Below, one piece after another: positions 11,052-29,558 of a DNA stretch of 39,416 nucleotides. Source of the DNA: Croceicoccus sp. (GTDB lineage: Bacteria; Pseudomonadota; Alphaproteobacteria; Sphingomonadales; Sphingomonadaceae); the NCBI GenBank assembly GCA_029936705.1, contig JAPYSD010000002.1, forward strand, positions 1-39,416. The letters run 5' to 3'. The number at the start of each line of letters is the position of its first letter. Position 1 is the first letter of the stretch. The notes beneath the pieces are model-generated. The model was not told the origin of the DNA, did no database searches, and saw only the letters and a list, made by a program, of their open reading frames with translations. Made by a program: the position numbers and the translations under genes.

Positions 11052-11061
11052 CGAACATCGG

Positions 11062-11145: not shown

Positions 11146-11181
11146 GCAGCCGCCGGGCAGGCTACGCCGCGGGGTACGATG

Positions 11182-11508: not shown

Positions 11509-11583
11509 TTTCGTCTCCTATTCCGCAGTATCATTTCGGAAGGGGCGCACGGCCCTCGACGGCCGGCGCCCCGTGCTGATCCA

Positions 11584-11907
11584 TCATTCGCGGCCGAGCA
11601 CCTGGCCTTCGGGCGTGACGAACAGTTCGATCGTCTTTCCGTCGCTGTTCTTGCCCTTGATTTCATAGAGCGTGCTTCCGTCCGCCTTTCGGGTGACTTG
11701 CTCCGCTTTGCTTATTGACGCGAGTTGCGCGCGTGCCGCGTTCATCGCGGCCTCGGGCACCTGAGCAAGCGGGATGTCTCGTTCGCTGTGCTTGCCGATT
11801 ATCCGGTTTTCGTTCGCCTCGTGGTTTTGCGCGATCGCCACGCCCGCGATCGCCAGCGCGGCCGCGCCCACGCCTGCGACAACAGTGAGAGTTCGTTTGC
11901 TAGCCAT
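11584..11907 (-). CDS. PepSY-like periplasmic protein
   Basis: The start is at ATG 11907 with a GGAA six bases upstream; the 27 residues before it in the track are not family-like. The protein is 107 aa: signal or anchor segment MASKRTLTVVAGVGAAALAIAGVAIA, then a PepSY-like module (AQVPEAAMNAARAQLASISKAEQVTRK, then YEIKGKNSDGKTIELFVTPEGQVL). PepSY domains are small inhibitory or binding modules in the envelope. The gene lies 77 bp downstream of the DUF1259 gene in the same leftward transcript. Confidence 0.75.
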   Translation of the reverse strand: MASKRTLTVVAGVGAAALAIAGVAIAQNHEANENRIIGKHSERDIPLAQVPEAAMNAARAQLASISKAEQVTRKADGSTLYEIKGKNSDGKTIELFVTPEGQVLGRE

Positions 11908-11984
11908 GTTCCATTCCACTTCCTGCATAAGGGCCGTGGGGTCGGGCGGGCGGCGGTTACGGCCCAATGAGCCGTCGTCCGAGT

Positions 11985-12875: not shown

Positions 12876-12999
12876 AATTGATCCTTCATCAGCGCACTCG
12901 ACACGGAAAGCCTCACGTCATGCGAGCGCGCCGCCGGCGAGCCGCGACATTGCGCTCCGGTTTCTTTCTTCGGGATAAGCAGTCCTATGCTCATGAGGC

Positions 13000-13028
13000 T
13001 TGTGATGCAACCCTTACACTTGTAGGCT
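13000..13028 (+). promoter_or_regulatory. Putative sigma-70-type promoter of the chrB operon
   Basis: TTGTGA (13000-13005) and TAGGCT (13023-13028) are separated by exactly 17 bp and lie 15 bp before the chrB ATG. The short distance to the start implies a very short leader. ChrB proteins can act as chromate-responsive regulators, so this region is a likely operator. Confidence 0.45.
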
Positions 13029-13043
13029 AGTGACGATACAACT

Positions 13044-13994
13044 ATGACAAACACACAAGCTTCCCCTTGGTTGCTCCTGATCCCGCAGCTTCCGGCTAAG
13101 CCTGCCTATTTGCGGGTGAAGGTCTGGCGGCGTTTGCAGGCGATCGGGGCCGCGCCGCTCAAGAACGCCGTCCATGCGCTCCCCAATCGCGAGGACACGC
13201 GCGCGCTGTTCGAAGAACTGCATCGCGAGATCACCGAAAATGGCGGCGAGGCGCTGATCCTCGAAGCGCGCCTTGTCGGCGGCATGGGCGATGCGGAGCT
13301 GCGCGGAGTGTTCGACGCTGCGCGTGACGCCGACTATGAGGAGTTGGCACGCGAGGCGCGCGCGCTGTGTGAGGGCGAGTATGTCGCGGCGGCGGATGTG
13401 GGCCGCCTGCGCAAACGCCTGAACGAGGTCGCCGCGATCGACTTTTTCGGTGCGCATGGTCGGCAGGCGGCACAGGCCGCCATCACCGAGGCGGACCGCC
13501 GCTCTCACCAACATCCCGATGTGAGCGGCCCCGGTGCGCCCGAGCTGACCCCGGCGGAGCTAAAGCGCCGCGTTTGGGTGACGCGCCGCCATGTCCATGT
13601 CGATCGCATCGCGTCCGCCTGGCTCATTCGCCGCTTCATCGACCCCGAGGCGAGCTTCAAGTTCGTCGAGGGCAAAGGATATGTGCCGGAGCCTGACGAA
13701 CTGAGGTTCGACATGGCGGACGCTGAGTTCACCCACGAAGGCGACCGCTGCTCCTTCGAGACCTTGGTGTTCCTCACCGGTCTCGAGACCGACCCCGCGC
13801 TGCGGGCGCTCGGCGAAATTGTTCACGACCTTGATATTGCCGATGCTCGGTTCGAGCGCCCGGAAACTCCGGGAGTGAGCGCGCTTATCGCCGGCATCTG
13901 TGCCGGCACCGACGACGACGAGGAGCGGATCGCGCGCGGATCGACCGCGCTCGACGGATTCTATGCTCACTTCACCCGGCGAAAAGAGGACTAA
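13044..13994 (+). CDS. chrB: Chromate resistance protein ChrB
   Basis: The protein is 316 aa, the usual length of ChrB. The N-terminal domain shows WLLLIPQLPAKPAYLRVKVWRRLQAIGA then LKNAVHALPNREDTRALF; the C-terminal ChrB domain shows VWVTRRHVHVDRIASAWLIRRFIDPEASFKFV, FTHEGDRCSFETLV and IVHDLDIAD. In characterised systems ChrB is a chromate-sensing regulator or accessory factor for ChrA. It begins the plus-strand operon and ends 2 bp before chrA. Confidence 0.93.
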   Translation: MTNTQASPWLLLIPQLPAKPAYLRVKVWRRLQAIGAAPLKNAVHALPNREDTRALFEELHREITENGGEALILEARLVGGMGDAELRGVFDAARDADYEELAREARALCEGEYVAAADVGRLRKRLNEVAAIDFFGAHGRQAAQAAITEADRRSHQHPDVSGPGAPELTPAELKRRVWVTRRHVHVDRIASAWLIRRFIDPEASFKFVEGKGYVPEPDELRFDMADAEFTHEGDRCSFETLVFLTGLETDPALRALGEIVHDLDIADARFERPETPGVSALIAGICAGTDDDEERIARGSTALDGFYAHFTRRKED

Positions 13995-13996
13995 AG

Positions 13997-15394
13997 ATGG
14001 AGGCCAGCGCACGCGCTGAAATCGCAGTCGAGACGCTGCACGAGCACGGCATCAGCTTTGGCGAGGCGGTGCGCGTCTGGATCAGGGTCGCGCTGCTCAG
14101 CTTCGGCGGACCGGCGGGCCAGATAGCGGTGATGCATCGCATCCTGGTCGAGGAGAAGCGCTGGATCGGCGAGGAGCGGTTCCTCCACGCGCTCAACTAT
14201 TGCATGCTGCTGCCCGGCCCTGAAGCGCAACAGCTAGCTGTCTATATTGGCTGGTTGCTCCATAAGACCAAGGGCGGCCTGGTCGCGGGCGCGCTATTCG
14301 TGCTGCCCGGCTTCCTCGCGATTTTAGGGCTCAACTATGTCTATGTGCTGCTCGGCGAAGTGGCGCTGGTCGAGGGATTGTTCTTCGGATTGAAGGCCGC
14401 CGTGCTGGCGGTGGTGCTACAGGCGGTGGTCCGGGTGGGTTCGCGTGCCTTGAAGAACAACGTCATGCGCGGTTTTGCCGCGCTGGCGTTCGTCGCGATC
14501 TTCGTGCTCGACGTGCCCTTCCCGCTGATCGTGCTTGCCGCCGCGCTGATCGGCTTCTTCGGTGGCCGCGCTGGTTACGCCGCATTCAAGGGCGGCGGCG
14601 GACATGGTCCCGCCGGCGCTGAGATAATCCACGACCGCGACACCGCTCTTGGCGAGGGCCTTCCCGACCATGCCCGGCCGAACCTCTCTTGGTCGCTGCG
14701 CATCTCCGGCGTCCTGCTGCTGCTCTGGCTCGGGCCGGTCGCAGCGCTGCTGTTCGCGTTCGGCCCCGACGACGTGTTCAGCCGCATCGCCACCTTCTTC
14801 AGCCAGATGGCGGTGGTGACCTTCGGCGGCGCCTATGCGGTGCTCGCCTATGTCGCGCAGGAGGCAGTCGAGACCTATGGCTGGCTCCAGCCCGGCGAGA
14901 TGCTCGACGGGCTCGGCATGGCCGAGACCACGCCCGGGCCGCTGATCATGGTGACGCAGTTCGTCGGCTTCCTCGCGGCCTTCCGCGAAGCGACCGGGCT
15001 GCCGCCGCTCGTCGCCGCGACCTTCGGCGCAATCCTCACCACCTGGGTTACCTTCCTGCCATGCTTCCTGTGGATCTTCGCCGGCGCGCCATTCATCGAG
15101 CGGCTGCGCGGCAACCGCGCATTGTCGGCCGCGCTTTCGGCGATCACCGCCGCAGTGGTCGGCGTGATCCTCAATCTGGCGGTCTGGTTTGGTATCCACA
15201 CTCTGTTCGAGCAAGTCCGCGAAGTGCCGTTCGCAGCCGGCACCATCGATCTCCCAGTCCTAACGTCCGTCAACTGGCCGGCGCTGGCGCTCGCGGTGGG
15301 TGCGATACTCGCCATGTTCCGGTTCAAGGCCGGCATGCTGCCGGTGCTCGGCGTCTGCTCGGTCCTCGGGGCCGCATATGTAATGATCATCTGA
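13997..15394 (+). CDS. chrA: Chromate efflux transporter ChrA
   Basis: The protein is 465 aa, as for long-chain CHR-family transporters. It has the two homologous halves of ChrA: the N-half with RVALLSFGGPAGQIAVMHRILVEEKRW and LNYCMLLPGPEAQQLAVYIGW, the C-half with MAVVTFGGAYAVLAYVAQ and GLGMAETTPGPLIMVTQFVGF. These 'FGGP' and 'PGP' motifs are the CHR signature. It has ten or more hydrophobic segments and exports chromate across the inner membrane. An RBS-like AAGATGGAGG surrounds the start; the start is 2 bp after the chrB stop. Confidence 0.95.
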   Translation: MEASARAEIAVETLHEHGISFGEAVRVWIRVALLSFGGPAGQIAVMHRILVEEKRWIGEERFLHALNYCMLLPGPEAQQLAVYIGWLLHKTKGGLVAGALFVLPGFLAILGLNYVYVLLGEVALVEGLFFGLKAAVLAVVLQAVVRVGSRALKNNVMRGFAALAFVAIFVLDVPFPLIVLAAALIGFFGGRAGYAAFKGGGGHGPAGAEIIHDRDTALGEGLPDHARPNLSWSLRISGVLLLLWLGPVAALLFAFGPDDVFSRIATFFSQMAVVTFGGAYAVLAYVAQEAVETYGWLQPGEMLDGLGMAETTPGPLIMVTQFVGFLAAFREATGLPPLVAATFGAILTTWVTFLPCFLWIFAGAPFIERLRGNRALSAALSAITAAVVGVILNLAVWFGIHTLFEQVREVPFAAGTIDLPVLTSVNWPALALAVGAILAMFRFKAGMLPVLGVCSVLGAAYVMII

Positions 15395-15405
15395 AGGAGT
15401 GACGC

Positions 15406-16137
15406 GTGACGATCGACCATCTTTCCCGACGCAGTGCAATCGCAACTCTTGGCATCGGAGCCGCCGCCATGACTATCAACGAAGCCTCTGCGCAGACGCC
15501 GGCCGCAGCGCCGGCGGCTGTCCCCGCCTTTGCCGGAAATCATCAGGTCAAGCCGCTCAGGTTCAATCCCGCCAGGCTTCACGGCCTCTCCGAAAGGCTG
15601 ATCACATCGCACCACGAGAACAATTATGCGGGCTCGGTCAAGGCCCTGAATATGATCGAGACACGACTTGCCGCCGCGCTCGCTGACACGGACCTGCCGC
15701 CGGTGGTCTATGGCGGATTGAAGCGCGAGGAGCTGCACCGCACCGGCTCGGTCGTGCTCCATGAGGTCTATTTCGACGGGCTCGGCGGCAACGGCCAGGC
15801 AGCCGGTTCCATCCGCGACGCGCTGGGCGCGGCGTTCGGCTCGTTCGACCGCTGGGAAGCCGACTTCCGCCGTACCGGGATGAGCCTTGCCGGCGGATCG
15901 GGCTGGTGCGTGCTCGTCTACAATCTCCACACGCGCTCGCTGCACAACCATTGGGCGTGGGATCATATGCACGGTGCGATTGCCGGCGTGCCGCTGCTCG
16001 CGCTCGATATGTACGAGCACAGTTTCCACATGGATTACGGCACCGCCGCCGCCAAATATGTCGACGCCTTCTTCCGCAACATCGACTGGGAAGTGGTCGA
16101 CCGGCGCTATGCCGCGGCTTTGCGCGGCGGCGGCTGA
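15406..16137 (+). CDS. Tat-exported Fe/Mn superoxide dismutase (ChrC-like)
   Basis: The protein is 243 aa. The N-terminus [20 protein letters not shown] is a twin-arginine signal followed by an Ala/Pro-rich linker. The mature domain has [17 protein letters not shown] (first His region), [11 protein letters not shown] and [16 protein letters not shown], the D-x-x-x-H metal-ligand motif of Fe/Mn SODs. In known chromate clusters the SOD called ChrC removes superoxide generated by Cr(VI) reduction. An AAGGAGTGACGCGTG lies ahead of the start, 11 bp after chrA. Confidence 0.9.
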
Positions 16138-16225
16138 ACCCGACCGCCGTGGCTTAACACCCACTGCTGCGCGACACCTGAGTTCGCGACCACAAAGGGG
16201 ACAGGTCCGATGGGGAGATGCAACA

Positions 16226-17305
16226 ATGACATCCGGCCCGAACATCGCTCTTCTTTGGCGTGGGCAAGCAGCCGAGTGGACGCATCGCTTTCATGAAGCC
16301 CGGCAGTGGCCGATAATGCAGGCCTTGCGGGCGCTCGGGGCGACCGCAAGGCCTGTACTGTACAGGGACGAGGCGGTTCGCGAGATTCGGGACGAGCTGC
16401 TGTCGTGCGACGCAGTGCTGGTCTGGGTGAATCCGTTGGACATTTCAGGCGACCGCTCGCAGCTCGATCCAATGCTGCGCGAAGTCGCGGGGTGCGGCGT
16501 TGTCGTCAGCGCGCATCCTGACGTGATCGCCAAAATCGGCGTCAAGGAAGTGCTCTACACAACGCGATCCATGGAATGGGGCAGCGATGTCGATCGATAC
16601 GTGGACGCTGAAGGCCTTCGCGCTCGTTTCCCCGAACATCTTGCCGCAGGCCCGCGCGTGCTGAAGCCGAACTACGGCAACGGCGGCAGGAATGTATGGC
16701 GTGTCCAACTAGACGAAGCGGGAAACGCTCCGGCTTTGAAAACGTCGGTGAAAGTTCAAGAGGCCCGCCAAGGAAGCAAATCGGAGCGCATCAGCCTAGC
16801 CGAGTGCTTGGAAAGGTGGGTGCCGTTTCTAAACGACGGCGGCGTGCTGATCGATCAGGCTTATCAGCCGCAGTCGTCCGAGGGCATGGTCCGCTGCTAC
16901 GTGTGCGGGCACCGAGTGGTTGGCTTTGGGCACAACCTGATCACTGCGCTGATGACGCCAACGGCCATTGATACAACGTCGTCAACCCCACAGCCGATGG
17001 GCCGCGCCATGTTCGGACCGGAGGTGACGCGCTTCGCAGCCTTACGGAAAGCGATGGAGGATCGCTGGATTCCAGAGATGCAAAGGTTGCTGTCGATCGT
17101 CGACCACGATCTTCCGCTTCTTTGGGACGCCGACTTCCTATTTCGCCCTGGTGAAGCCATCAGCGATGGCTCCTATGCGCTTTGCGAGATCAATGCTAGT
17201 TCGGTTGCACCATTTCCGCCAAGCGCCGTCCAGCCAGTCGCCGCAGCGGCAATCGGTCGCGCTCTTGCCATTCGTTTGACGAAGGAGACCTCCAATCCTC
17301 ATTGA
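16226..17305 (+). CDS. ATP-grasp-like protein (Cj0069-type)
   Basis: The start is at ATG 16226, with GGAG about eight bases upstream; the 472-aa track ORF begins antisense-like inside the SOD gene. The protein is 359 aa. ATP-grasp features: PRVLKPNYGNGGRNVWRVQL (nucleotide Lys and glycine-rich loop), then LPLLWDADFLF and YALCEINASSVAPFPPSA (metal-binding D and E-x-N). This matches the group annotated as Cj0069-family proteins, often beside chrA. The substrate is unknown; ligation of a carboxylate to an amine or thiol is the family expectation. It may share the chr transcript. Confidence 0.65.
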   Translation: MTSGPNIALLWRGQAAEWTHRFHEARQWPIMQALRALGATARPVLYRDEAVREIRDELLSCDAVLVWVNPLDISGDRSQLDPMLREVAGCGVVVSAHPDVIAKIGVKEVLYTTRSMEWGSDVDRYVDAEGLRARFPEHLAAGPRVLKPNYGNGGRNVWRVQLDEAGNAPALKTSVKVQEARQGSKSERISLAECLERWVPFLNDGGVLIDQAYQPQSSEGMVRCYVCGHRVVGFGHNLITALMTPTAIDTTSSTPQPMGRAMFGPEVTRFAALRKAMEDRWIPEMQRLLSIVDHDLPLLWDADFLFRPGEAISDGSYALCEINASSVAPFPPSAVQPVAAAAIGRALAIRLTKETSNPH

Positions 17306-17389
17306 TATGATTCAAGCAATTCAAGAGACGTGACATTGGTCGTATCAATCAGACAAGCCTAAGGGTGAGCGAGGCTGGGTGAAACCGGC

Positions 17390-17950
17390 TCAGGTGGCAG
17401 CGCGGAGATACTGGTAGAGGGTTTCGCGACTGATCCCCAGGTCACGGGCGATGACGGCCTTGCGCTCGCCGTCATCAACACGGCGGTGCAGCTCGGCGAC
17501 CATTTCGTCGGAGAGGGAACGTTTCCGCCCGCGATAAGCACCGCGTTGTCTGGCGACCGCAATGCCTTCGCGCTGCCGCTCCCGGATCAGGGCGCGCTCG
17601 AATTCGGCGAACGCACCCATGACCGAGAGCATCAGGTTGGCCATCGGGGAATCCTCGCCCGAGAAGGCCAGGCTTTCCTTCACGAACTCGATCCGGACGC
17701 CTCTTTTGGTGAGGGACTGAACCAGTTTGCGCAGATCGTCGAGATTACGCGCCAATCGATCCATGCTGTGGACCACGACGGTGTCACCCTCGCGGGCGAA
17801 GGCGAGCATGGCATCGAGTTCGGGGCGGTTGATGTCCTTGCCCGATGCCTTGTCGGTGAAAATCCGGTCGAGCGACTGCCCGTCCAACTGGCGATCGACA
17901 TTCTGATCGAATGTGCTCACCCGGACGTAACCGATCCTCTGGCCTTTCAT
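17390..17950 (-). CDS. tnpR: Serine resolvase TnpR
   Basis: The protein is 186 aa, standard for Tn3 resolvases. The catalytic serine is Ser12 in IGYVRVSTFDQN; the domain continues with MDRLARNLDDLRKLV and FAEFERALIRERQREGI (arginines and the E helix). The C-terminal HTH is RKAVIARDLGISRETLYQYLR. It resolves cointegrates formed by TnpA at the adjacent res region. It runs opposite to tnpA with 173 bp between them. Confidence 0.95.
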   Translation of the reverse strand: MKGQRIGYVRVSTFDQNVDRQLDGQSLDRIFTDKASGKDINRPELDAMLAFAREGDTVVVHSMDRLARNLDDLRKLVQSLTKRGVRIEFVKESLAFSGEDSPMANLMLSVMGAFAEFERALIRERQREGIAVARQRGAYRGRKRSLSDEMVAELHRRVDDGERKAVIARDLGISRETLYQYLRAAT

Positions 17951-18123
17951 CGCCGCCTCCGGTCAAAATGTCAGGTTGAATTCTATGACACGGCGGAACA
18001 TGCGTCAATAAATGCTTGCCATAACCCTATCCTGACAGAAACCGCCGCTGCATCCTGACGTCCGGTTAGGCTATACTCCAGATTGACGCTAGCCTGTCGC
18101 TCTCGACTCGGGATGGAGGCAGG
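17951..18123. other. Probable res site between tnpR and tnpA
   Basis: The interval between the divergent tnpR and tnpA genes is AT-richer than its surroundings. It contains a 22 bp element with perfect TGTCA/TGACA arms (17969-17990) and further half-site-like motifs (TGCGTCAATAAATGCTTGCC; CCTGACAG near 18030). Position and composition fit a three-subsite resolution site, which would also hold both promoters. Confidence 0.65.
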
Positions 18124-21093
18124 ATGGCGCGGCGGCGATTATTGACCGGAGAAGAAAGGCGTCGCCTGTTCGATATCCCCCATGACGAAACCGCGATCGT
18201 CGGCCACTATACCCTTGCCGCCGAGGATCTCGAACTGGTCGGTCGCCGCTATCGCCCTGCCAACCGCCTCGGTCTGGCAACGCAGATCGCGCTTATGCGG
18301 CATCCCGGCTTCGGTTTGCAGCCCGACGTCGACGTCCCCGATGCGGTCCTTCACTATCTCGCCGCCCAGCTCTTCGTCGATGTTGATGCGTTCGCCGACT
18401 ATGGCCAGCGCGCGCAAACACGTAACGATCATGCCGACATTGCGGCACGGCATCTGGGGCTACACCCTTTTCGGCGAGGGGATATACCGCTCGCGCTCGA
18501 TCTCGCCGCAAGAGCTGCGGAGCGGACCGATCGGGGCGAACCTATTGTCCGCGCATTGATGGAGGGGCTGAAGCAGGAACGCTTCATTCTTCCATCGGCA
18601 GACACGCTCGAACGTGCGGGCCTCGCCGGCAGGGCACGCGCCCGCAAAGCCGCGGCGGCGCTCATTGTCGAAAGCCTGGGTCATGCCGAACTGGCGCGGA
18701 TCGATGATCTGATCGTCAACAACAGCGACTTCGGCATGACGCCGCTGGCCTGGCTGCGCAATTTCGAGGAAGCGCCCACCACGGCGAACATCAACGGGCT
18801 GCTGGAACGGCTACGCTATGTGCGCGGAATCGGCATCGACCCGGCGATCGGCGCGAAAATCCCCGACTTCCGGTTCGCGCAGTTCATGCGCGAAGGTGGC
18901 GTTGCGCCGGCGTTCCTGCTCTCCGATTATAGCCTTAACAGGCGCCGCGCGACGCTGATCGCGGCGGTCATCGACCTCGATGCCAGGCTCGCCGATGGTG
19001 CGATCCAGATGTTCGACAGGCTTGTCGGAAGCCTGTTCACACGGGCGCGGCGCGGGCGGGAAAGGCGCTATCAGGACAGCATCCGCTCGGTCGGCGAACT
19101 TATGCGGCTGTTCGGCGCGACGATCGCCGCGCTGGGAGAGGCGGTCGAACATGGCGGTAATCCGCTCGAACTGATCGACGAAGCGGTAGGCTGGCACAGA
19201 CTGGTCGCAGCCAAATCGCAGGTCGATGCGCTGGCCGAGCTGGCGGGCGAAGATGCGCTTGTCGCGGCGACTGGTCGCTATGCGACGCTGCGGCGGTTCA
19301 GCCCGGCTTTCCTCGATACATTCACGTTCAAGGCATCGGGGAGCGGATCGCAACTGGTCAAGGCCATCGAGGTCATCCGCGATACCAATGCCCGCAAGGC
19401 CCGCAGCCTGCCCGAGGGCGTTCCGCTCCCATTCGCCAACCGGCAGTGGAAGCGCCTCATCACCGAAGGTGGCCAGGTCGATCGCCGGCGATACGAGACG
19501 GCCATCATGGCCACGCTGCGCGATCGGTTGCGCGCCGGCGACATATGGGTCGAAGGAACCCGCAATTATCGCCGCTTCGACACCTATTTGCTGAGTCGAC
19601 GCGATGCCGATAAGGTGGCCGACAGCCTGCCATTCCAGACCGATGCGGCCGCCTATCTGGAGGAGCGGGCAAGGACGCTCGACTGGCGGCTGCGCCGTTT
19701 CGCCAAGCAACTCAAGGCGAACAGGCTCGCGGGCGTGGCGCTCGAACGCGACCGGCTCAAGCTGCAACCCATGCCGGCGATCACTCCACCCGAGGCGGAG
19801 GCTCTCGATCGCAGGCTCGACGCCTTGCTTCCGCGCGTGCGGATCACCGAACTCCTGGTCGAGGTGGCCGAGCGCACCGGGTTCCTGAGCGCATTTCGCG
19901 ATCTTCGGTCCGGCAAGGAGCATGACAACCCGCACGCGATCCTCGCCGCCATTCTCGCTGATGGATCGAATCTGGGTCTAGAGCGCATGGCCAACGCCAG
20001 CGACGGGGTGAGCTACGCCCAGCTTGCCTGGACCCACAACTGGTATTTGTCGCCCGAAAACTATCAGGCCGCGTTGGGGATGATCGTTGCCGCGCACCAT
20101 GATCTTCCTTTCACGCGCCATTGGGGAGCCGGCACTAGTTCATCCTCCGATGGGCAGTTCTTCCGCTCGGGCCGCAACCGATCGGCGGCGGCCGACATCA
20201 ATGCGAAATATGGCAGCGAGCCGGGCCTGAAGATCTACTCCCACCTGTCCGATCATTTTGCCTCGTTCGGATCGCGGATCATGTCGGCCACCGCCGGCGA
20301 GGCCCCCTACGTGCTGGATGGCCTGATGCTCGGCGCCGGCGCGCTACCGCTGCATGAGCATTACACTGATACCGGCGGCGCGACGGACCATGTCTTTGCC
20401 CTTTGCCATCTTCTCGGCTTCCGGTTCGTGCCCCGTCTGCGCGACATCGCCGACCGGAAACTCGGCTCGATCGCCGCGCCTTCGACCTACAAAGGCATCG
20501 AAAGCCTCATGGGCCGCACGATCAAGACGGCGGCGATCGAAGCCGATTGGGATGACATCGTCAGGATCGTCGCCTCCATTAAGGAAGGAGCCGTTGCGCC
20601 CTCCGCGATCCTGCGCAAGCTGGCCGCCTACAAGCGCCAGAACAGGCTGGATTTTGCGCTGGCCGAACTCGGCCGCATCGAGCGGACGCTATTTGCGCTC
20701 GACTGGCTTGAACAGCCCGACTTGCGTCGCGCCTGCCAGGCCGGCCTCAATAAAGGCGAAGCACGTCATACCCTTGCCGCCGCGATCTACACCAACCGAC
20801 AGGGGCGGTTCACCGATCGCTCGATCGAGAATCAGGAATATCGGGCATCGGGCCTCAATCTGCTGATCGCGGCGATTTCTTACTGGAACACCGTCTATAT
20901 GGACAGGGCCGCCCAGCATCTCCAATCATCCGGCGGCACCTTCGATGATGCGCTGCTTGCCCATCTCTCGCCGATGGGCTGGGTGCATATCAGTTTGACC
21001 GGCGACTATCTGTGGCAAAGGGCAAACCGGCTCTCCCCTGGCGAGTTCCGCACCCTCAACGATCCCATGGCCCGCCTCAAACTCGTGGCATAG
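18124..21093 (+). CDS. tnpA: Tn3-family transposase TnpA
   Basis: The protein is 989 aa, full length for the family. The N-terminus (MARRRLLTGEERRRLFDIP and LAAEDLELVGRRYRPANRLGLATQIALMRHPG) is the DUF4158 DNA-binding region. The DDE catalytic core lies in the last third: Asp in ILAAILADGSNLGLERMA, Asp in SSSDGQFFRSG and Glu in SIENQEYRASGLNLLIAAI. It stops 10 bp before the right terminal repeat. It should catalyse replicative transposition using both inverted repeats. Confidence 0.95.
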   Translation: MARRRLLTGEERRRLFDIPHDETAIVGHYTLAAEDLELVGRRYRPANRLGLATQIALMRHPGFGLQPDVDVPDAVLHYLAAQLFVDVDAFADYGQRAQTRNDHADIAARHLGLHPFRRGDIPLALDLAARAAERTDRGEPIVRALMEGLKQERFILPSADTLERAGLAGRARARKAAAALIVESLGHAELARIDDLIVNNSDFGMTPLAWLRNFEEAPTTANINGLLERLRYVRGIGIDPAIGAKIPDFRFAQFMREGGVAPAFLLSDYSLNRRRATLIAAVIDLDARLADGAIQMFDRLVGSLFTRARRGRERRYQDSIRSVGELMRLFGATIAALGEAVEHGGNPLELIDEAVGWHRLVAAKSQVDALAELAGEDALVAATGRYATLRRFSPAFLDTFTFKASGSGSQLVKAIEVIRDTNARKARSLPEGVPLPFANRQWKRLITEGGQVDRRRYETAIMATLRDRLRAGDIWVEGTRNYRRFDTYLLSRRDADKVADSLPFQTDAAAYLEERARTLDWRLRRFAKQLKANRLAGVALERDRLKLQPMPAITPPEAEALDRRLDALLPRVRITELLVEVAERTGFLSAFRDLRSGKEHDNPHAILAAILADGSNLGLERMANASDGVSYAQLAWTHNWYLSPENYQAALGMIVAAHHDLPFTRHWGAGTSSSSDGQFFRSGRNRSAAADINAKYGSEPGLKIYSHLSDHFASFGSRIMSATAGEAPYVLDGLMLGAGALPLHEHYTDTGGATDHVFALCHLLGFRFVPRLRDIADRKLGSIAAPSTYKGIESLMGRTIKTAAIEADWDDIVRIVASIKEGAVAPSAILRKLAAYKRQNRLDFALAELGRIERTLFALDWLEQPDLRRACQAGLNKGEARHTLAAAIYTNRQGRFTDRSIENQEYRASGLNLLIAAISYWNTVYMDRAAQHLQSSGGTFDDALLAHLSPMGWVHISLTGDYLWQRANRLSPGEFRTLNDPMARLKLVA

Positions 21094-21103
21094 CCAGTGT
21101 TCT

Positions 21104-21153
21104 CATTATGTCCGCCAAATCGTTGTCTGGCGCACAAACCTTGAGGTGACGCC
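21104..21153 (-). repeat. Right terminal inverted repeat of the Tn3-family element
   Basis: This is the reverse complement of the left repeat with one mismatch in 50 positions. It begins 10 bp after the tnpA stop and is followed by AGCTA. Confidence 0.92.
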
Positions 21154-21158: not shown

Positions 21159-21394
21159 CGCGGGTTCCGCCACGGCAACCCTGGGTGAATAGCGGCGAAA
21201 GGCTGCCTCTCTTCGCCGACATTGCTGCCGTTCGCTGGCTCAGATTAGTCCGTCGAAACCTGCCCTACGTTCATGCCCAGCCAAAAGCGGTAACGGGCCG
21301 TAGCTGACGGGCGGCCTACAGGCGTTCATGATTGGGAACGGAGTGAATTCAGGATTACGCGCATCTCTAATGGACTGATATCTGCGTGAGACGC

Positions 21395-22504
21395 TCAAGC
21401 TACATTTCGACGCACCATTTTTCTACGCGATGGCAAACTGCGGGGCCTTGGGGCACGATCGCGCTTCGCTGGCGGGCAAGCAGGACAGCTGACGGCTTCT
21501 TCGACCATCGCTTTCGGTCCCGGGATTGGGCCTCCAAGGCGCCCATCGAGAATCTGCCGAATCAGATCGTCGAAAAGGTCGCGCTCGACCGCGTACATTC
21601 CGCCCCGCGCGCCTTCAAAGGCGCAGTTCCACGCCGCGAGTGCTTGGCCATAGCGTAGAGCATTTGTCAGACTCTCGATGCTCGTCGATTTCAATCCTGA
21701 AAGGCCCGCTCCGGCGATCTTCGACAATAGACCGGCCGAACACCAATCACCGGACCCGCAGCTGTCTAAAAACTGCGGCGCGTTGACCGCCGGCAAATGC
21801 GTCCAATCGGACAGATTTGAAAGACGATGGCGATAACGCAGCCCTTCAATGCCCATCGTCTGGATTTCAAGAATCGTGGCACTATCACCGGTCATCGCGC
21901 CGCCAGCCTCGCTCAAGCGCTGATCGGCATATTTCACGATGTGGGCGAGCTGCAACGCCTCGGCAAAGAGCTTGGGATCGGATTTGCCAGACGGCTCGAA
22001 CATGACGATCGCGCCCGCGTCTGCCGCTCGCGCTGCCAAGGTCAGCGCCGCGCGCGAAAGCCGATCCATGAAGAAAACTTGGGCGCCGTTGACCCCGTCG
22101 CCGACGGCATCGACGGCCTGGCGTGTGACCGGCTTGAAACTCGGCAACCACTGGCCGCAGCGTGGACAAGCCCAGGAAAAGCGGTGTGTTGGTGATCCAT
22201 CGCGCCCTCGACATATCTCCTGGATGATGATGGGCGTATGACTGGTTGGCTCACAACCGGCAAAATCCAGCTTCACGCCCCAGCGGCTCATGTCAGCCCT
22301 GACCCGCTCGGAGGCAGGGTCACCGTTCATGCGGGCGATTGGGTAGCTCTCCCACCCAAGGTAGGCGAGGATTGATAGAACGTTCCCGCAAGTCCCGCCC
22401 GCCCAAGCCTGGACCGGCAGGTTCGGATTCGCGCTCATGACCAGATCGAGTGCGATCAGGCCGGTCCCAAATGCGCGCGGCTTTTCGCCTTCGGCTGTGT
22501 TCAC
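21395..22504 (-). CDS. PfkB/ribokinase-like sugar kinase with CxxC knuckles
   Basis: The protein is 369 aa. PfkB features: WAGGTCGNVLSILAYLGW (about 35-51, the GG..N substrate motif) and FLDSCGSGDWCSAGLL (about 246-260), the anion-hole/catalytic motif in which D253 would be the base. The usual GAGD is GSGD here. An insert at about 110-120 reads CPRC and the C-terminal tail has CPAC, so a structural zinc site is possible. The tail after residue ~335 is Arg/Pro-rich. It is the last gene of the five-gene operon, overlapping gene four by 4 bp. The predicted role is ATP-dependent phosphorylation of a sugar or nucleoside; substrate unknown. Confidence 0.78.
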   Translation of the reverse strand: MNTAEGEKPRAFGTGLIALDLVMSANPNLPVQAWAGGTCGNVLSILAYLGWESYPIARMNGDPASERVRADMSRWGVKLDFAGCEPTSHTPIIIQEICRGRDGSPTHRFSWACPRCGQWLPSFKPVTRQAVDAVGDGVNGAQVFFMDRLSRAALTLAARAADAGAIVMFEPSGKSDPKLFAEALQLAHIVKYADQRLSEAGGAMTGDSATILEIQTMGIEGLRYRHRLSNLSDWTHLPAVNAPQFLDSCGSGDWCSAGLLSKIAGAGLSGLKSTSIESLTNALRYGQALAAWNCAFEGARGGMYAVERDLFDDLIRQILDGRLGGPIPGPKAMVEEAVSCPACPPAKRDRAPRPRSLPSRRKMVRRNVA

Positions 22505-23604
22505 GCCGCTACCCCCTCATTATGAAGTGCCGGTCGAGGCTGCGGATAGACATCCCCTTCCAACCAAATATGAATCATGTCGGCCGCCTCCTCGTTGGCG
22601 GCCGGCCCATCGAACGCGTAGCCGATCGCCTCCAGATAGGCGACAGGCAAATCACGCTCGAGTGCCGCCATCAAGGCACCAAGCGCCATGACCTTGCTTC
22701 CGAGCGGTGAAAGGATCATCAGCGATCCTCCGACCTCCGCAAAGACCGGCTTTCGCAGGTCATCAAGACGCAGGATCGTTCGATAGAGATCGAGCGGATC
22801 CGACTCGTCCGCATAGACAATATTGCGCGTATCTACCGACCACCCGCTCTCGAACTCGGTCAGAAACTCCTCGGCCAAGCGATCGCCGGCCCGCGGATCG
22901 ATCGTCGGAAACGGCAGGATCGGGCAGGTATCGTGCGGGTCGACGAAGGAATGCAGCCGTCCGAGCGCGCCGGCCCGCCCGGATGCGAGTTGCGGCAGCC
23001 AGAGCTTCGCGGCGCCGGCCGAGCCGTCGAGGGTCGATCCGCCGCGAAAGCCATGCACGAAGCCCGGCGCATCGCTCGATACCGACGTGATCGCGCCGTC
23101 GAGGGCCGGGTCATGTGTCACGAACAGGTGAAGATTGAACTCGGCCGGTGCCCGCACCGACCGTTCGACCAGATAGCGGATGATCGGGAACGCCGTGCCG
23201 ACCGAAAGCGCGCTGATATCGACGACGACATCGGTCGTCTCCGCGAAATCCTGCCGACCGATCAGCGCGACCGCATTCCGGCCGCCCACTACCGCGCCGT
23301 CGCTCCCGAAGATGTTCACCGGTGCCATCTCATGCGCCGGAATTGCCGCCCGTAGCACGTCGCCATTCGTGGTAGCGCGGTCGATCAGCGTCTGCGTCGG
23401 CTTCGGGCGCTCTTCCTGAAAAAACAACCCCCGGATTTGGCCTTCGGTGTTGGCGAGCCGCCGCGCCACGGTCGTAGAACGAGGATCAAAGCCAGCCCCG
23501 CCCACCAGCAGGATGCGACGTTCGGGGCGGGCGAAATAATCGTCCACGAAGCCGTCAATCTCGGCGCCGCGATGCGAGACGCAGGGATCCCATCGGCCGG
23601 CCAT
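22501..23604 (-). CDS. Unrecognised Rossmann-like protein of the five-gene operon
   Basis: The protein is 367 aa of unknown family. The segment ERRILLVGGAGFDPRS (about 28-43) looks like a first beta strand and glycine-rich loop, and TTDVVVDISALSVGTAFPIIRYL (about 123-145) like a buried strand with an Asp-Ile-Ser tip followed by a helix. The layout recalls Rossmann-type sensor domains, but no binding residues are proven. The C-terminal half has VFAEVGGSLMILSPLGSKVMALGA. It starts one base inside the ATPase stop (TGATG) and overlaps the kinase gene by 4 bp. Ligand sensing or an enzymatic role is speculation. Confidence 0.6.
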   Translation of the reverse strand: MAGRWDPCVSHRGAEIDGFVDDYFARPERRILLVGGAGFDPRSTTVARRLANTEGQIRGLFFQEERPKPTQTLIDRATTNGDVLRAAIPAHEMAPVNIFGSDGAVVGGRNAVALIGRQDFAETTDVVVDISALSVGTAFPIIRYLVERSVRAPAEFNLHLFVTHDPALDGAITSVSSDAPGFVHGFRGGSTLDGSAGAAKLWLPQLASGRAGALGRLHSFVDPHDTCPILPFPTIDPRAGDRLAEEFLTEFESGWSVDTRNIVYADESDPLDLYRTILRLDDLRKPVFAEVGGSLMILSPLGSKVMALGALMAALERDLPVAYLEAIGYAFDGPAANEEAADMIHIWLEGDVYPQPRPALHNEGVAA

Positions 23605-25514
23605 CAGGGGACCTCATCCAGAAGCCGAACCAGATCGTCGGCGCGCCGCTCGAGAAACCCGCCCCGCTTGAGAGTCAGGCCATGATGGAGCAGCAACACG
23701 CCGCCCAGCTCGATGAGACACCATTTGCGCTTCTTCGTGCCATGGTCCGGCACGAGCACAAAGGCGTTATAGGCCACGCCGAACTGCAAAACGCGCGCGA
23801 GATCGGGATGGCTCGTCGGGATCGAGTCGAACTCGTCTTGCGGAATTCCGAAGGCAGTCGCCCCACCCCCCAGCGACGCATTGCCTTCCAGGCTCTTGGT
23901 AACGCATTCCCGAGCGATCCCATCCGACAGACGCCTGACCAACTGCTGCTGCGGGAAGTCCCATTCCCGCACCATCTCGCTGGCGCGTTCGCGCAGCAGC
24001 TTGTGCTGCATCCCGCTGCGCAGCGTCGGCGCCTTGGCGCGAATGAGCTGGGTCTCCGACTGGGAGACCAGGCGGGCAGCCAGTTGCAGAAACTGCTCGG
24101 CATTCTCCGAACTAGCATCGCAGAGCGCATCGATCCCGAAATAATAAGGCCGATCATAGCGATGGAGGAGATGAATGCGGGCACCTTCCGCGATCGAGGC
24201 ATCAACCGTCAGCGGGCGGTTCGGCTCGACATCCTCCTCCGGCTGATCGAACAGGCCTCGCTGGGGTATCCGCTTGGCATAGCGCTCAAACAGCACCGAC
24301 AGCATTGCCATCTGCATGTCCTCGCCGGCCTCGCCCGTGCCTTCCAAATAGGTGGCAATATCCTGCGCGAGCGCGTGCCGGCGGACGGCAGAGATGTTAT
24401 GACGGCGCTGAAGCACGTCGACATGCTCCGCCAACCGTTCCCGTTTGCTCTGTGCGATTATCTCGGGCGTAGTCGACAACAGATCGCCGAGATTGTTCAG
24501 CCGGCGGCGATTAAACACCTCCATCTGGCTCAAATAGCGGCCAGCCATATCTCGCGCCATCTTGCGGAATGCGCGCCGCTGCCCGAGCCGGTCGTCGGTG
24601 CTCTGCATCCAGATATCGGTGATTTCCCGGGCACGTTTGAGGCCCGGCTCCTCACCGTCCTGCGGTTCGGCATCCAGCAGGACGTCAGCAGGCGTGAGCG
24701 CGTCGAGCCGAGTCAGGATCCAGCGCGAAACTTTAAGTTCTCGCCGCGCGAGCCAGCGCTGCAAGGCGGCCAATTGAGCCGGATGGAGGCTGTGCGCATC
24801 GTCGAAGATGATCAACGGGCGGAGCGTCAGCACATCCTCGCCATCGACAATGCGGAAGGATTCGATGACGTCGAATGGGCGATAGGCCGCGGCCGCCTGG
24901 TCATCGATATCCTTGACGTCGGGCGGCATGAGTGCGGCTGAAATCCGATAGATCGCGAGTTCGACCTCGCGCGCGCGCTGGAGCAGATCGGGACCGGCCG
25001 TCCCCCCGATCGCGGTCAACGCCGCATCGGCGTCTGCGCGAGGAATGATCTCAACCTGATCGAGCGCGACGCCTGCCGTCTGCAAGTTGCGCAGCCATGC
25101 TAGGATCGTGCGCGCTTGGAGGAGGGCGATCATCAACCCTGCCTTGAGCTCGTCGGGATAGGGAAACTCCCAGAATTCGCGATATTCCGCCTCGAGCGGA
25201 AGCCTGCCCCCCAGCAGGACCGGCTGCTCATCGACCAGCGCCCCGCACGCCGTCAGCGTGTCGATCAACGGCTTGTAGGTGTTGAGGCCGCGATTGCGCA
25301 GCAGCGTGCGCAGCGTCGCATACTGGAACAGCCGGGCCAGGGTCGTCTTGCCGCTGCCCGGCGTGCCGATCACCATTGCCAAGCGATCGTAGAGCCGCCC
25401 ATCCTTTGCCGGCTTCTCGAAGAAGGTCGACAGCGGTTCGGGCGTCACGACAGCCAAAAAGGCCTCGTCATCGCGAAGATATTCGGTGGCGCGCTTCTCG
25501 AAGGGATTGATCAT
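23604..25514 (-). CDS. AAA+/ORC-CDC6-like P-loop ATPase of the five-gene operon
   Basis: The protein is 636 aa. Walker A is [16 protein letters not shown] (about 48-63), Walker B is [17 protein letters not shown] (about 232-248, with D-D-A-H) and a sensor-1-like strand RWILTRLD follows (about 264-271). The architecture (N-terminal '[19 protein letters not shown]' docking peptide, AAA+ core, long helical C-terminal half) resembles ORC/CDC6-like or STAND-type regulatory NTPases rather than metabolic enzymes. Such NTPases often act as switches in prokaryotic conflict systems. It begins 9 bp after the PRTase-like gene and is coupled to the next gene by TGATG. Confidence 0.75.
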
Positions 25515-25523
25515 GGCCGCCGC

Positions 25524-26663
25524 TCAGACATGCCTCTGCCGCCGCCGGAACAGAGGGCGCATCGCCGGAGCCGCAACACCATCACGGTCCCCGCCCGCGG
25601 TCTCCGCCCAGAGCAACGCGACCGCGTTATTCGGTGTATTGTGATTCAGCACGAGGGGGAGCGCACAGCCGCCATAGCCAAGGCCGAGATGCTCGACGCC
25701 GCCAACATCCGTGTGCTTCGTGCGAATGATCGGATCGTAATATGTCTGGGTCAGCTTGATGAACGCATCGTCACGCCCTTCAACGACGCCCAGGGGCAGG
25801 TCAGTCGGGAGTACCGTGCCGAACGAAATATGGACCGCCTTGGCCCAGCCGTCGCCGACCAGCGCATCTTTTGCGAGCTCTTGACGCTCGCCGATGGCCT
25901 GCGCTGCGGTCGAAGAGGCGATATAGTGATGCACGCAAAGCTCCCAATTCGGATCGAACGGGTCGCTTCCGAGGACCTGGCGCGCGCCTTCGATTGACTC
26001 CTTGAAGCGCCAGAGCTTCCCCGACCACTTCTGCTTCTTCTCGTTGTAGCGGAAGAACGATGTGCCCGTCCCCGCGAAATCGTCGACAAGATAGACCAGC
26101 CGAAACAGCGCCTGCTCGTCCTTCAGATCCTCGCGAAGGTTGCCGAGAAGGTCTTCCCATTTCTCCTTGTCGAGCTGTGTTGCGAGCACCAGCTGTTCAT
26201 TGGTGAGCAGCCCGACATTGCTATGGCGAACGCCGTCGATCCGTGCGCCGTCGCTCAACCCCATGACGAGGGTCTGGCGGCGCAAGCGTTCCACGTCGCT
26301 CCGCGCCGCTTCATCGCCTAGCACCCGAAAGGCGGGAATGCCGCGCTGCGCCGCGACCGTCGACACCAGACGTTCCCGCATCGTCTTTGGATAGAACTGT
26401 TCGACGAGCTTCTGCATTTCGATGGGCCCGACATAGACCAACCTACTGCGCACGAACGCATAGGCCGTCTCGCGTTCCGCCCGATCGAACTGCTGGAGCC
26501 AGGTGGCGAGACTCTCGAAAAACCGCATGCCCGCCTGGAAATCCCGGTAGCCGTCATATTTCAGCCGCGCCATCAGCCGCAGCCAGCGATATTCCTCCCG
26601 GGCGCGCTCGTCGCTCCAGTGCATGATCTCGGCAAGGACTTTGAGGCCTAGATCCTGGTTCAT
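25524..26663 (-). CDS. Phosphoribosyltransferase-like protein of the five-gene operon
   Basis: The protein is 379 aa. The segment LVYLVDDFAGTGTSFFRY (about 189-206) is a PRPP-binding loop of type I phosphoribosyltransferases (hydrophobic strand, two acidic residues, TGT/S). The N-terminal ~180 residues are helical and longer than in housekeeping enzymes. The C-terminal motif CALPLVLNHNTPNNAVALLWAE is distinctive and, from memory, shared with PRTase-like proteins placed in predicted conflict systems (PRTase-CE). No purine or pyrimidine salvage subgroup fits. The gene starts 4 bp inside the SIS-HAD gene. Confidence 0.75.
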   Translation of the reverse strand: MNQDLGLKVLAEIMHWSDERAREEYRWLRLMARLKYDGYRDFQAGMRFFESLATWLQQFDRAERETAYAFVRSRLVYVGPIEMQKLVEQFYPKTMRERLVSTVAAQRGIPAFRVLGDEAARSDVERLRRQTLVMGLSDGARIDGVRHSNVGLLTNEQLVLATQLDKEKWEDLLGNLREDLKDEQALFRLVYLVDDFAGTGTSFFRYNEKKQKWSGKLWRFKESIEGARQVLGSDPFDPNWELCVHHYIASSTAAQAIGERQELAKDALVGDGWAKAVHISFGTVLPTDLPLGVVEGRDDAFIKLTQTYYDPIIRTKHTDVGGVEHLGLGYGGCALPLVLNHNTPNNAVALLWAETAGGDRDGVAAPAMRPLFRRRQRHV

Positions 26664-28597
26664 AGCAGCGCATCCGCCTTGAAGCGGACACCGCCTTCAC
26701 ACGGCTCAAGTGCGTCCAGATATTCGAGGGTCACTTGCAGGCCCCGCTGCCCCGGCTGACCAAGGTTCCAGCATGTGCTCGGATCGACGCTGATCTCGTC
26801 CACGCTCAGGGCGAACGGCTCGCGCAAAAGCGCATAGTCGTTTCCTGGCCACCGACCGCGATCGCCAATCGCCAGCAGGGCACCATCGTCGATCCGAGAG
26901 CGGATCGCCGCCAGTACGTTGGCCTTGGACACATGCTCAGGCACGATATCGATCGAATGACTCGACCGCGTGACGATCACATTGCGCATTCCCTGCGTGA
27001 GCAGTACTTCATGCGCCAGATCCCACAGTCGCGACTCCGACAGTCCTTGTCGGGCTTCCAATGTGACCTGGTATTTTCGGTCCGATTGTATCGCGGCGCC
27101 CGCCAGTTCGGGCTGATCGCGCAGCGCTAGCGCCAACGCGGCGAGCTCATCGCACGGTTCGTCTTTGCCATCCGGCGCATTATCTTCCCCCAACGCTGCT
27201 ATTTCGGCGCCATTATAATAGCCGATCAGCACGTTTTCCCACAATGATTTAGGCAGCGCAGCCTGAAGGTCGCGCCGCACCGAGGCGCCCCGCCCCGTGG
27301 CGATCGCCAACTTGACGCCTGCGCCGAGCAGGCGATTCAATTGGCTCTTGACCTCGGGCGACACGGCATCGAACCGATGCCGCGTGTCGACCAGCGTCCC
27401 GTCATAGTCGAGCGTGATCGCCCGAAAGACAGGCCCCAACAGCCGCTGGCGGAAAGCTTCCAACGCCCCCTGCCAGCGCGCAAGGTCGCCCGCATCGGCA
27501 AGCTGCGCGGCGGAAGCGCCCGCCTTGCGATGGATTGCCGCGGCTTGCCTGGGGGTCAGGTTGGCGATGCGGGGCGCCGCGGTGCGCGGCAACGGCAGAT
27601 GATAGAGCTTGCGTCCAAATTCGGGGACGCCCGGGCGTCCCGGATCGAGGCCCCGCGCGCGCCCCGCCCAACCCGTGATCTGCAACGCCGCGATGAGCGA
27701 CGCCAGCATCGTCGCCATCGGCGATGCTGGCAGCTCAAGCCTTGCGATGGGTATCTCGGGCGGCAGCAGTGCAAGTGTGCGCTCCGCGAGATCAGCTCCA
27801 GTCGGTGAATAAAGCGCGAGTACGGCGCTAGCATCGCCCCGCTTGGCGAGCCAATGATGCCGACCATGTGCGAAGTTCCGGTAGTCCGCGATTTGCAGGT
27901 TGCCCACCGCAGCTTCGGTGAACTTGGACTCGAGGTCGATCGCCCCGATCCGGCTGTCTGCATCGTGAAGGACAATAGTCGTGCCACGCCGCCACAAATG
28001 CTCGGTCGTTAGTGCCCAGTTTTCGATCTGAGCGGACCCAGCGTCGAGCAACGGCGCTATGTTGACACGTACCGCTTCCCACTCTTCTGCAGTGCCGAGT
28101 TCAAGCAAATATGCCCGGACAAGCACAGCGATAAAGCCCAGCAAGGAATTGGTGGCGAGGAAGCCGTCCTTACCCGCTGGCGGTGGAAAAAGCAGCAGAT
28201 CAACGAAAGTGTGTCTGCGAGCAAGATCGGACAAGGGACTTTCCGAGCGACCACAGAGGATGGCGAGTTGCCGCGGCTCCTGGTTTGCCAGCCGGCGCGC
28301 TGCACCTAAAATGTCGACGTTGCTTCCGCCGGCACTCAACAACCAGTTCGCGAGCGGCGCTGCGCTTGGTTCGGTCACATCTAGCGGGGTCGCCACTACG
28401 CCCAGTTGGCGTGTAACATATTGATGCAGCTGCGCCAGCGCGTGCGCCGCCGTAAGAGAACCACCAGATCCCACTGCGCGAAGCGGCATTCCTCCGGCCG
28501 TTCTCACGGCGCGTCGCAACGCTCCAATGTCCACGTCATCAGCCCAGGCGAACGTCTCCGCAAGCCGCGCCATCTCAGCTGCATATGGCTTCGCCAT
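26660..28597 (-). CDS. SIS domain-HAD phosphatase fusion of the five-gene operon
   Basis: The protein is 645 aa. The N-terminal ~330 residues form a double SIS-like sugar isomerase region: VGSGGSLTAAHALAQL (about 42-57), LAILCGRSESPLSDL, then LESKFTEAAVGN and NFAHGRHHWLAK (about 222-252), analogous to the E..K and 'HGP' loop of GlmS/AgaS proteins. The C-terminal part is a Cof-like HAD phosphatase: nucleophile loop ITLDYDGTLVDT (D397/D399), LAIATGRG, a KYQV/VSKANVL lysine region and LLAIGDRGRWPGNDYALL. Predicted: isomerises and dephosphorylates a sugar phosphate. It is the first gene, with TTAAGGAG five bases before the ATG. Confidence 0.78.
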   Translation of the reverse strand: MAKPYAAEMARLAETFAWADDVDIGALRRAVRTAGGMPLRAVGSGGSLTAAHALAQLHQYVTRQLGVVATPLDVTEPSAAPLANWLLSAGGSNVDILGAARRLANQEPRQLAILCGRSESPLSDLARRHTFVDLLLFPPPAGKDGFLATNSLLGFIAVLVRAYLLELGTAEEWEAVRVNIAPLLDAGSAQIENWALTTEHLWRRGTTIVLHDADSRIGAIDLESKFTEAAVGNLQIADYRNFAHGRHHWLAKRGDASAVLALYSPTGADLAERTLALLPPEIPIARLELPASPMATMLASLIAALQITGWAGRARGLDPGRPGVPEFGRKLYHLPLPRTAAPRIANLTPRQAAAIHRKAGASAAQLADAGDLARWQGALEAFRQRLLGPVFRAITLDYDGTLVDTRHRFDAVSPEVKSQLNRLLGAGVKLAIATGRGASVRRDLQAALPKSLWENVLIGYYNGAEIAALGEDNAPDGKDEPCDELAALALALRDQPELAGAAIQSDRKYQVTLEARQGLSESRLWDLAHEVLLTQGMRNVIVTRSSHSIDIVPEHVSKANVLAAIRSRIDDGALLAIGDRGRWPGNDYALLREPFALSVDEISVDPSTCWNLGQPGQRGLQVTLEYLDALEPCEGGVRFKADALL

Positions 28598-28662
28598 AAC
28601 TCTCCTTAATCTCGACCTTCGACCATCCCATACGATGCCTGGAACATCAAGAGAACAAAAAG

Positions 28663-28800
28663 ATGCTTCGCGAATACATTATGGCTCGCCTAAAGAGCTT
28701 GCACCCAGGTCAGGTTTCAATGGCCGCAGCAGCAATTGCGGTGAAAGTGATGAACGGCAGGAATGGGCACGTGGCTACCATTTATGATAGCAGCGTCTAA
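28663..28800 (+). CDS. Possible 45-aa small protein divergent from the five-gene operon
   Basis: This is an ATG-to-TAA frame of 45 codons, below the track's cutoff, in an otherwise gene-free 376 bp stretch (28598-28973). The sequence MLREYIMARLKSLHPGQVSM followed by AAAAIAVKVMNGRNGHVATI is basic-amphipathic with an Ala-rich helix. The ribosome site is weak. It lies divergently from the SIS-HAD gene, so its 5' end shares that gene's promoter region. It could be a chance ORF. Confidence 0.3.
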   Translation: MLREYIMARLKSLHPGQVSMAAAAIAVKVMNGRNGHVATIYDSSV

Positions 28801-28937
28801 GGTCGGCTATTCGCACGTCGCACCCCAATACCTGCCTTTCCGGATCGTCCGACCCTGCGGTCATACGGCATCACAGAAGCGTGCAGAGCAGGGGGCCGAA
28901 ATGGGAGTTTGCTTGTAATGTTCCGCAATACACTTAC

Positions 28938-28967
28938 TTGACATGGATCTGTAATGTATGACATTAC
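28938..28967 (+). promoter_or_regulatory. TTGACA box and perfect 17 bp palindrome, HigA-type operator
   Basis: A consensus -35 TTGACA (28938-28943) is followed by GTAATGT-ATG-ACATTAC (28951-28967), a perfect 7 bp inverted repeat ending six bases before the higB start codon. HigA antitoxins bind palindromes of this type at their own promoter. The overlap of promoter and palindrome supports autorepression. Confidence 0.65.
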
Positions 28968-28973
28968 AAATCC

Positions 28974-29256
28974 ATGGAGATCGAAAGCATCGATCATAAG
29001 AACCTCCGCAAGTTCTTCACGACAGGGAAGGCGAGGGGGGATTATAGAGGTAGAGCGGCTTCGCAGAATGCTGGCCTTTATCGATGCGACGGGCTCTTTT
29101 GACGAGCTGGCCATTCCGCCGAGCTACGGTTTCCATGCGTTGACAGGAGGCCGTGATGGCTGGTTCGCGATGACAGTCACGAAGAACTGGCGGCTTGTTT
29201 TTACCAAGGTGGACGAGACGACCATCGCCCATCTCGATCTGGAGGATTATCATTGA
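28974..29256 (+). pseudogene. higB: HigB toxin gene with a +1 frameshift in a G6 run
   Basis: The natural ATG at 28974 encodes MEIESIDHKNLRKFFTTGKARG, a normal HigB start. The rest of HigB (IIEVERLRRMLAFIDATGSF to HLDLEDYH) lies in the next frame. The two halves join perfectly if one G is removed from the run GGGGGG at 29035-29040. The track's 100-aa ORF from 28954 therefore has a false N-terminus. Either the toxin is inactivated, or this is a homopolymer sequencing error. HigB proteins are RelE-fold mRNA interferases of about 93 aa. The stop overlaps the higA start by one base. Confidence 0.85.
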
Positions 29257-29558
29257 TGACTCTCAAGATGCATCGTGCGCTGGCCGTTCACCCTGGTGCT
29301 TGGCTCAAAGAAGAGATGGTCGGGCCTTACGGTATTAGCGTGACCGATCTTGCCAATCGCTTTGGCGTGTCGCGTCCGCCTCTGAGCAATCTGCTCAACG
29401 GGAAGGCCGGGCTGTCGCCCGATATGGCGATCCGGTTCGAGAAGGCCTTTGGCGTTTCGGCAGCGACCTTGTTGCGCATGCAGGCAGCCTATGATCTCGC
29501 GCGCGCCGAGGAAATGGCCGATAGCATCAAGGTCGACCGCATTCCGGAACCGGTTTAG
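29256..29558 (+). CDS. higA: HigA-type antitoxin
   Basis: The start is at ATG 29256 (TGATG with higB). The protein is 100 aa: MTLKMHRALAVHPGAWLKEEMVG is the typical HigA/VapI N-terminus, then the HTH VTDLANRFGVSRPPLSNLLNGKAGLSPDMAIRFEKAFGVS. It would bind the upstream palindrome and neutralise HigB. The frame is intact although its toxin partner is shifted, so it may persist as a repressor or as protection against related HigB toxins. Confidence 0.9.
   Translation: MTLKMHRALAVHPGAWLKEEMVGPYGISVTDLANRFGVSRPPLSNLLNGKAGLSPDMAIRFEKAFGVSAATLLRMQAAYDLARAEEMADSIKVDRIPEPV

Follow-up and report, generated by a model that had tools for sequence, protein, structure and literature searches.

Phosphoribosyltransferases (PRTases) recur in bacterial conflict systems, namely type III retrons, DprA-PRTase and RqlHI. 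The PRTase of type III retrons is the proposed effector (PMC12548924), and the PRTase of the DprA-PRTase system has been described as a toxic or effector part, with the mode of action of retron PRTases stated as unknown in the same work (PMC9122126). In RqlH, the D663A substitution in the PRPP pocket abolishes both growth inhibition and SOS induction, and phosphoribosylation of DNA has been suggested for this protein (PMC4670107). Furthermore, the PRTases and HAD phosphatases of Ter systems were proposed to make a nucleoside-derived signal (PMC7824862). The gene described here, from a Croceicoccus sp. contig of which 39,416 nucleotides were analyzed (the window), is part of a mobile operon of five genes, conserved as a set, that was overlooked in an earlier note on this DNA and that holds most of the interest. 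The cassette has the look of a so far undescribed system of immunity or genome conflict, although its individual protein families are already known. A literature search of limited coverage found no description of the five-gene operon, so that an earlier description is possible.

Identification of the PRTase-CE Gene

25524..26663, minus strand: PRTase-CE gene, 379 aa, ATG start, zero internal stop codons

The encoded protein consists of a helical N-terminus (approximately residues 3-129), a type I PRTase-like core, the PRPP loop (residues 192-202) and a C-terminal HNTPNN motif (residues 341-346). Residues 54-374 match the Pfam family PRTase-CE (PF24390) with an E-value of 1.4e-15 and a score of 58.3 bits against the curated cut-off of 27, and the PADLOC profile of the retron protein PRTase_III-A also matches (E-value of 1.2e-10). 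Based on these matches and on 316 confirmed relatives, a chance open reading frame was excluded. The stretch 25524-26663 is a genuine gene for a PRTase-like enzyme, for which catalysis and PRPP binding are predicted from the sequence. The preserved loop of a PRTase-like protein pointed out in the earlier note was thus confirmed, with LVDDFAGTGTS at residues 192-202 (including D194 and D195). The non-salvage architecture that the earlier note had also claimed is supported as well. The long helical N-terminus is borne out by the AlphaFold2 model (mean pLDDT of 87.6), in which residues 3-129 are nearly all helix and are followed by an alpha/beta core. No relatives were found in a sequence search of the PDB. 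A Foldseek search with the model gave weak matches, among which uracil PRTases were the commonest PRTases; the likeness to uracil phosphoribosyltransferase is one of fold only (best E-value of approximately 5e-3, low TM).

Conserved Residues and the C-Terminal Motif

Residue conservation was scored across 52 diverse operon homologues. D195, G200, H341, N342, P344, N345 and N346 are invariant (52/52), and D194 is retained in 51 homologues and replaced by Glu in one. Residues S137-G139 (the SDG motif), R146, Q157, K168, R374 and H378 are also fixed or nearly so. Of the other residues in the motifs that the earlier note proposed to check for invariance (DD, TGT and HNTPNN), T343 is Thr in 48/52, T199 is usually Ser (38/52) and T201 is Thr in 44 homologues. 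Loss of the acidic pair or of the C-terminal motif from most homologues was not seen, and the original observation is confirmed in this respect.

Across a broader alignment of 15 diverse PRTase-CE members, D195, G200 and P344 are invariant and N345 is conserved at 90% or above. H[NG]xPN[NT], or a looser variant of it, occupies the same position in PRTase-CE proteins adjoining reverse transcriptases (L132, L134, L136 and L137) and in the protein of a helicase/methylase locus (L128). D195 is kept in all of the aligned retron and L128 proteins, whereas D194 is Thr ("TDF") in several retron PRTases; the D194-D195 pair is therefore not obligatory for the PRTase-CE family. Because H[NG]xPN[NT] is common to type III retron PRTases and other PF24390 proteins, HNTPNN is a version of a known family signature, and the suggestions that it distinguishes this protein or contributes to a new active site are not supported. 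The window protein thus resembles the PRTase-CE family, including type III-A retron PRTases, in its acidic PRPP loop and C-terminal motif. It differs from the aligned retron members in its longer helical N-terminus, in the lack of the retron C-terminal extension and in DD where retron proteins often have TD, and HNTPNN and SDG (137-139) are nearly fixed in the subfamily to which it belongs.

Partner Genes of the Operon

The PRTase-CE gene is one of five close-packed genes on the same strand, the other four of which are as follows.

26660..28597, minus strand: SIS-HAD fusion, 645 aa, 4-bp overlap with the PRTase gene
23604..25514, minus strand: ORC-CDC6-like AAA+ ATPase, 636 aa, 9-bp gap to the PRTase gene
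22501..23604, minus strand: CARF6-like Rossmannoid protein, 367 aa, 1-bp overlap with the ATPase gene
21395..22504, minus strand: PfkB/ribokinase-family sugar kinase, 369 aa, GTG start, 4-bp overlap with the CARF6-like gene

The N-terminal region of the SIS-HAD fusion was assigned as a sugar isomerase (SIS) by profile comparison with phosphosugar isomerases of solved structure (match at 4.4e-6), and its SGG (44-46) and HGRH (244-247) motifs are invariant. Active-site invariance of the HAD, PfkB and ATPase proteins was scored across 26-45 sequences. In the C-terminal HAD-IIB phosphatase, D397 and D399 (the DxD nucleophile pair), K558 and D579 (motif IV) are invariant in 45 sequences. The ATPase matches PF24389 with 50.9 bits (cut-off of 27); its Walker motif and acidic D238/D239 are conserved, with G53, G55, K56 and D238 invariant. 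The sugar kinase (Pfam E-value of 2.2e-9) keeps the catalytic GSGD, of which G250, G252 and D253 are invariant. In its residues 107-121 (window 22142-22186), HxFSxxCPxCG is conserved and is reminiscent of a zinc knuckle; to our knowledge, such a stretch is not a feature of the PfkB kinase family.

The CARF6-like protein matches the PADLOC CARF6 profile (1.5e-129). Only a chance-level match to PDB sequences was obtained, and its fold matches are mixed Rossmannoid folds, the weak ones including cA4-binding Card1, SiRe_0806 and Cam1. Two nearly invariant motifs of this protein, GFDPR (residues 38-42) and DxxxD (125-129, ending in D129; window 23217-23493), may form a ligand site.

The gene content differs from those of the described systems. 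The Pfam profiles detected no reverse transcriptase family among the five proteins, in contrast to type III-A retrons. An Rfam search of the 17-32 kb region of the window found no RNA. No nucleotide cyclase (CD-NTase or Cas10) was matched by the Pfam and PADLOC profiles in the five genes, unlike in CBASS and type III CRISPR signaling by CARF proteins. The Ter-type signal module also combines a PRTase, a HAD phosphatase and a proposed ligand-binding protein (PMC7824862), but the operon lacks TerB/C/D, TelA and vWA genes. RqlH-RqlI and DprA-PRTase are comparable by role, as conflict systems in which a PRTase domain is toxic or the proposed effector; the operon has neither a RecQ-like helicase nor DprA.

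A plasmid-borne operon for sugar or nucleoside salvage or catabolism would accord with the names assigned automatically, fructokinase and sucrose-6-phosphate hydrolase, and with the sugar-phosphate-type enzymes that make up two of the five proteins (three domains). However, a transporter or secreted hydrolase is missing from the five genes, the AAA+ ATPase and CARF6-like protein are constant members, and the cassette has moved between unrelated locations and is found near Gabija, Shedu or caspase genes on several plasmids. A metabolic role is therefore considered very improbable.

Distribution and Co-Variation of the Operon Genes

A scan of species-representative genomes yielded the 316 confirmed relatives, of which 80 were kept; they come from about a dozen phyla, as judged from record titles. 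Some originate from metagenome bins, and isolates include Mycobacterium, Singulisphaera, Stieleria and Chryseolinea. Operon counts rest on 62 loci with sufficient flanking sequence on both sides. All five gene families occur in 58 of them, including a few with one gene split into two frames (e.g., L013). The HAD and ORC genes are present in 62 loci, the CARF and PFKB genes in 61 and an intact PRT gene in 59; in the other three, the PRT profile matched but the frame was broken or run on. The order HAD-PRT-ORC-CARF-PFKB is found exactly in 36 loci, and PRT-ORC-CARF-HAD-PFKB with a divergent NADAR gene in nine, other orders occurring singly or in pairs. Median gaps between neighbors across the operon loci range from -4 to +3 bp. 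A 1019-aa open reading frame in L074 that seemed to fuse the PRT and ORC genes was rejected as a fusion because the region of the C-terminal motif is out of frame, which suggests a frameshift in this draft genome.

Correlations of pairwise identity divide the operon in two. Values within the trio are 0.97 (PRT-CARF), 0.96 (ORC-CARF) and 0.95 (PRT-ORC), and the HAD-PFKB value is 0.95, whereas those between the trio and HAD/PFKB are 0.81-0.85. NADAR, which is present in 19 of the 62 loci (about a third), correlates at 0.79-0.80 with HAD/PFKB versus 0.63-0.71 with the trio. There are thus two co-inherited modules, PRTase/ORC-ATPase/CARF6-like and SIS-HAD/PfkB, the latter joined by NADAR in about a third of loci. 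In addition, Sinorhizobium meliloti RRI128 and Rhizobium tumorigenes each have one HAD/PfkB/NADAR set alongside two distinct trios, an arrangement that would be expected of a sugar module acting in trans. We read the operon as a sensor/effector trio combined with a shared small-molecule module.

A trio also exists in L131 (8331-12012), where PRTase-CE, ORC-CDC6-like (PF24389) and CARF6 genes stand in the identical order, the ORC and CARF6 proteins being distantly but detectably similar to those of the window, but SIS-HAD and PfkB are lacking. This sister system is flanked by HD-domain and N6-methylase-like genes. In L128 and L129, the PRTase-CE gene is flanked on one side by a helicase ending in a NO VEIN domain and on the other by a DUF1156 methylase-like gene, and a small neighboring gene matches the NADAR profile.

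These comparisons bear on the main rival idea, that the PRTase, SIS-HAD and PfkB enzymes make a nucleoside or sugar-nucleotide messenger, which the CARF6-like protein would sense, with the ORC-like ATPase serving as effector or switch. The intact active-site residues of the enzymes, the CARF6-type, ligand-binding-like protein in 61/62 loci, and the analogies to CBASS and to the PRTase/HAD proposal for Ter systems (PMC7824862) are consistent with such a pathway. However, the L131 trio does without HAD and PfkB, and retron PRTase-CE genes adjoin a reverse transcriptase with sugar enzymes absent, so that the PRTase-CE family does not require sugar enzymes as partners. HAD and PfkB also track each other more closely than they track the trio. 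Synthesis of a signal by the operon is possible, though rather doubtful.

ORC-CDC6-type ATPases bind DNA, and the ORC-like ATPase might accordingly be loaded on DNA in a restriction or anti-restriction system in which the PRTase works with the sugar enzymes and NADAR to assemble or cleave a ribosylated DNA or RNA base. The N6-methylase-like gene beside the related L131 trio, the action of NADAR on ribosyl N-glycosidic bonds (PMC9503650) and the DNA phosphoribosylation already suggested for RqlH (PMC4670107) fit this scheme. However, no nuclease, glycosyltransferase or methylase was matched by Pfam profiles in the five-gene set, and NADAR is missing from about two thirds of the loci; base modification is considered decidedly improbable.

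Mobility and Genomic Neighborhood

21213..28853, no strand assigned: mobile cassette, 7,641 bp, exactly five genes

Segments of Qipengyuania mesophila (L048) and an uncultured Erythrobacter (L049) match window 21213-28853 at 99.6% identity across 7,641 bp, and no similarity of the flanks beyond the cassette was found at the threshold used. The cassette is thus mobile, being near-identical in two other Erythrobacter-group genomes with unrelated flanks. Relatives are located on 18 plasmid records, where the neighbors include Gabija (two plasmids), a caspase-like protein, a CBASS-type E1-E2 match, a phospholipase-effector match and Shedu; this reading as a defense neighborhood comes from a handful of annotated plasmids. 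No relatives were found among INPHARED phages, and only four IMG/VR contigs carry the gene, each together with the greater part or the whole of the operon, which indicates that this is not mainly a phage gene family.

Several further features were noted around the cassette. An ArdC-like protein is among the neighbors of the L048 copy, as judged from its translation. In the window, a Tn3-family transposon with long terminal inverted repeats (11002-21143) ends 70 bp from the cassette; its transposase (989 aa, 18124-21093) was identified by reading, and its cargo is chromate resistance, with ChrB at 13044-13994 and a chromate transporter at 13997-15394. Genes for a HigB-like toxin and an HTH antitoxin (28954-29558), which form a pair, directly adjoin the cassette. 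The end sequences of the cassette (21213-21274 and 28787-28853) recur, one in each, in two further genomes of the family, L146 and L147, with the five genes not adjoining, and the L146 copy adjoins genes for a TIR-domain-like protein and a relaxase-like protein (read by eye). These sequences could be repeats or mark where a mobile unit terminates.

Proposed Mode of Action

The cassette moves as a unit of five genes that overlap or lie almost end to end and whose catalytic motifs are conserved. With a probability of roughly one half, the gene at 25524-26663 supplies the PRTase-CE protein to a mobile conflict system of five genes, which is most likely directed against phages or plasmids. By analogy with the precedents of type III retrons, DprA-PRTase and RqlH, we favor the PRTase as the probable catalytic effector. 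The AAA+ ATPase and CARF6-like Rossmannoid protein may sense invasion, either as a DNA state or through a small ligand, and could hold the PRTase and then release it. The PRTase may then transfer phosphoribose from PRPP onto a target, or drain PRPP or bases. Finally, SIS-HAD and PfkB, together with the NADAR N-glycosidase where present, could act on the ribosyl or sugar-phosphate product for detoxification or recycling. The L131 trio without sugar enzymes and the association of PRTase-CE with reverse transcriptase in retrons tip the balance modestly to the PRTase as effector. A more specific proposal, that the operon represents a new immune class based on reversible phosphoribosylation, in which the ATPase/CARF6-like sensor frees the PRTase, a target is phosphoribosylated, and SIS-HAD/PfkB/NADAR cleaves and recycles the adduct, is speculative and judged unlikely.

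The cassette links a PRTase of the kind that recurs in conflict systems to an isomerase, a phosphatase and a kinase, with NADAR as a fourth, which limits the possible product. Since the cassette is compact, mobile and widespread, the question is experimentally tractable from one clone and a few point mutants.
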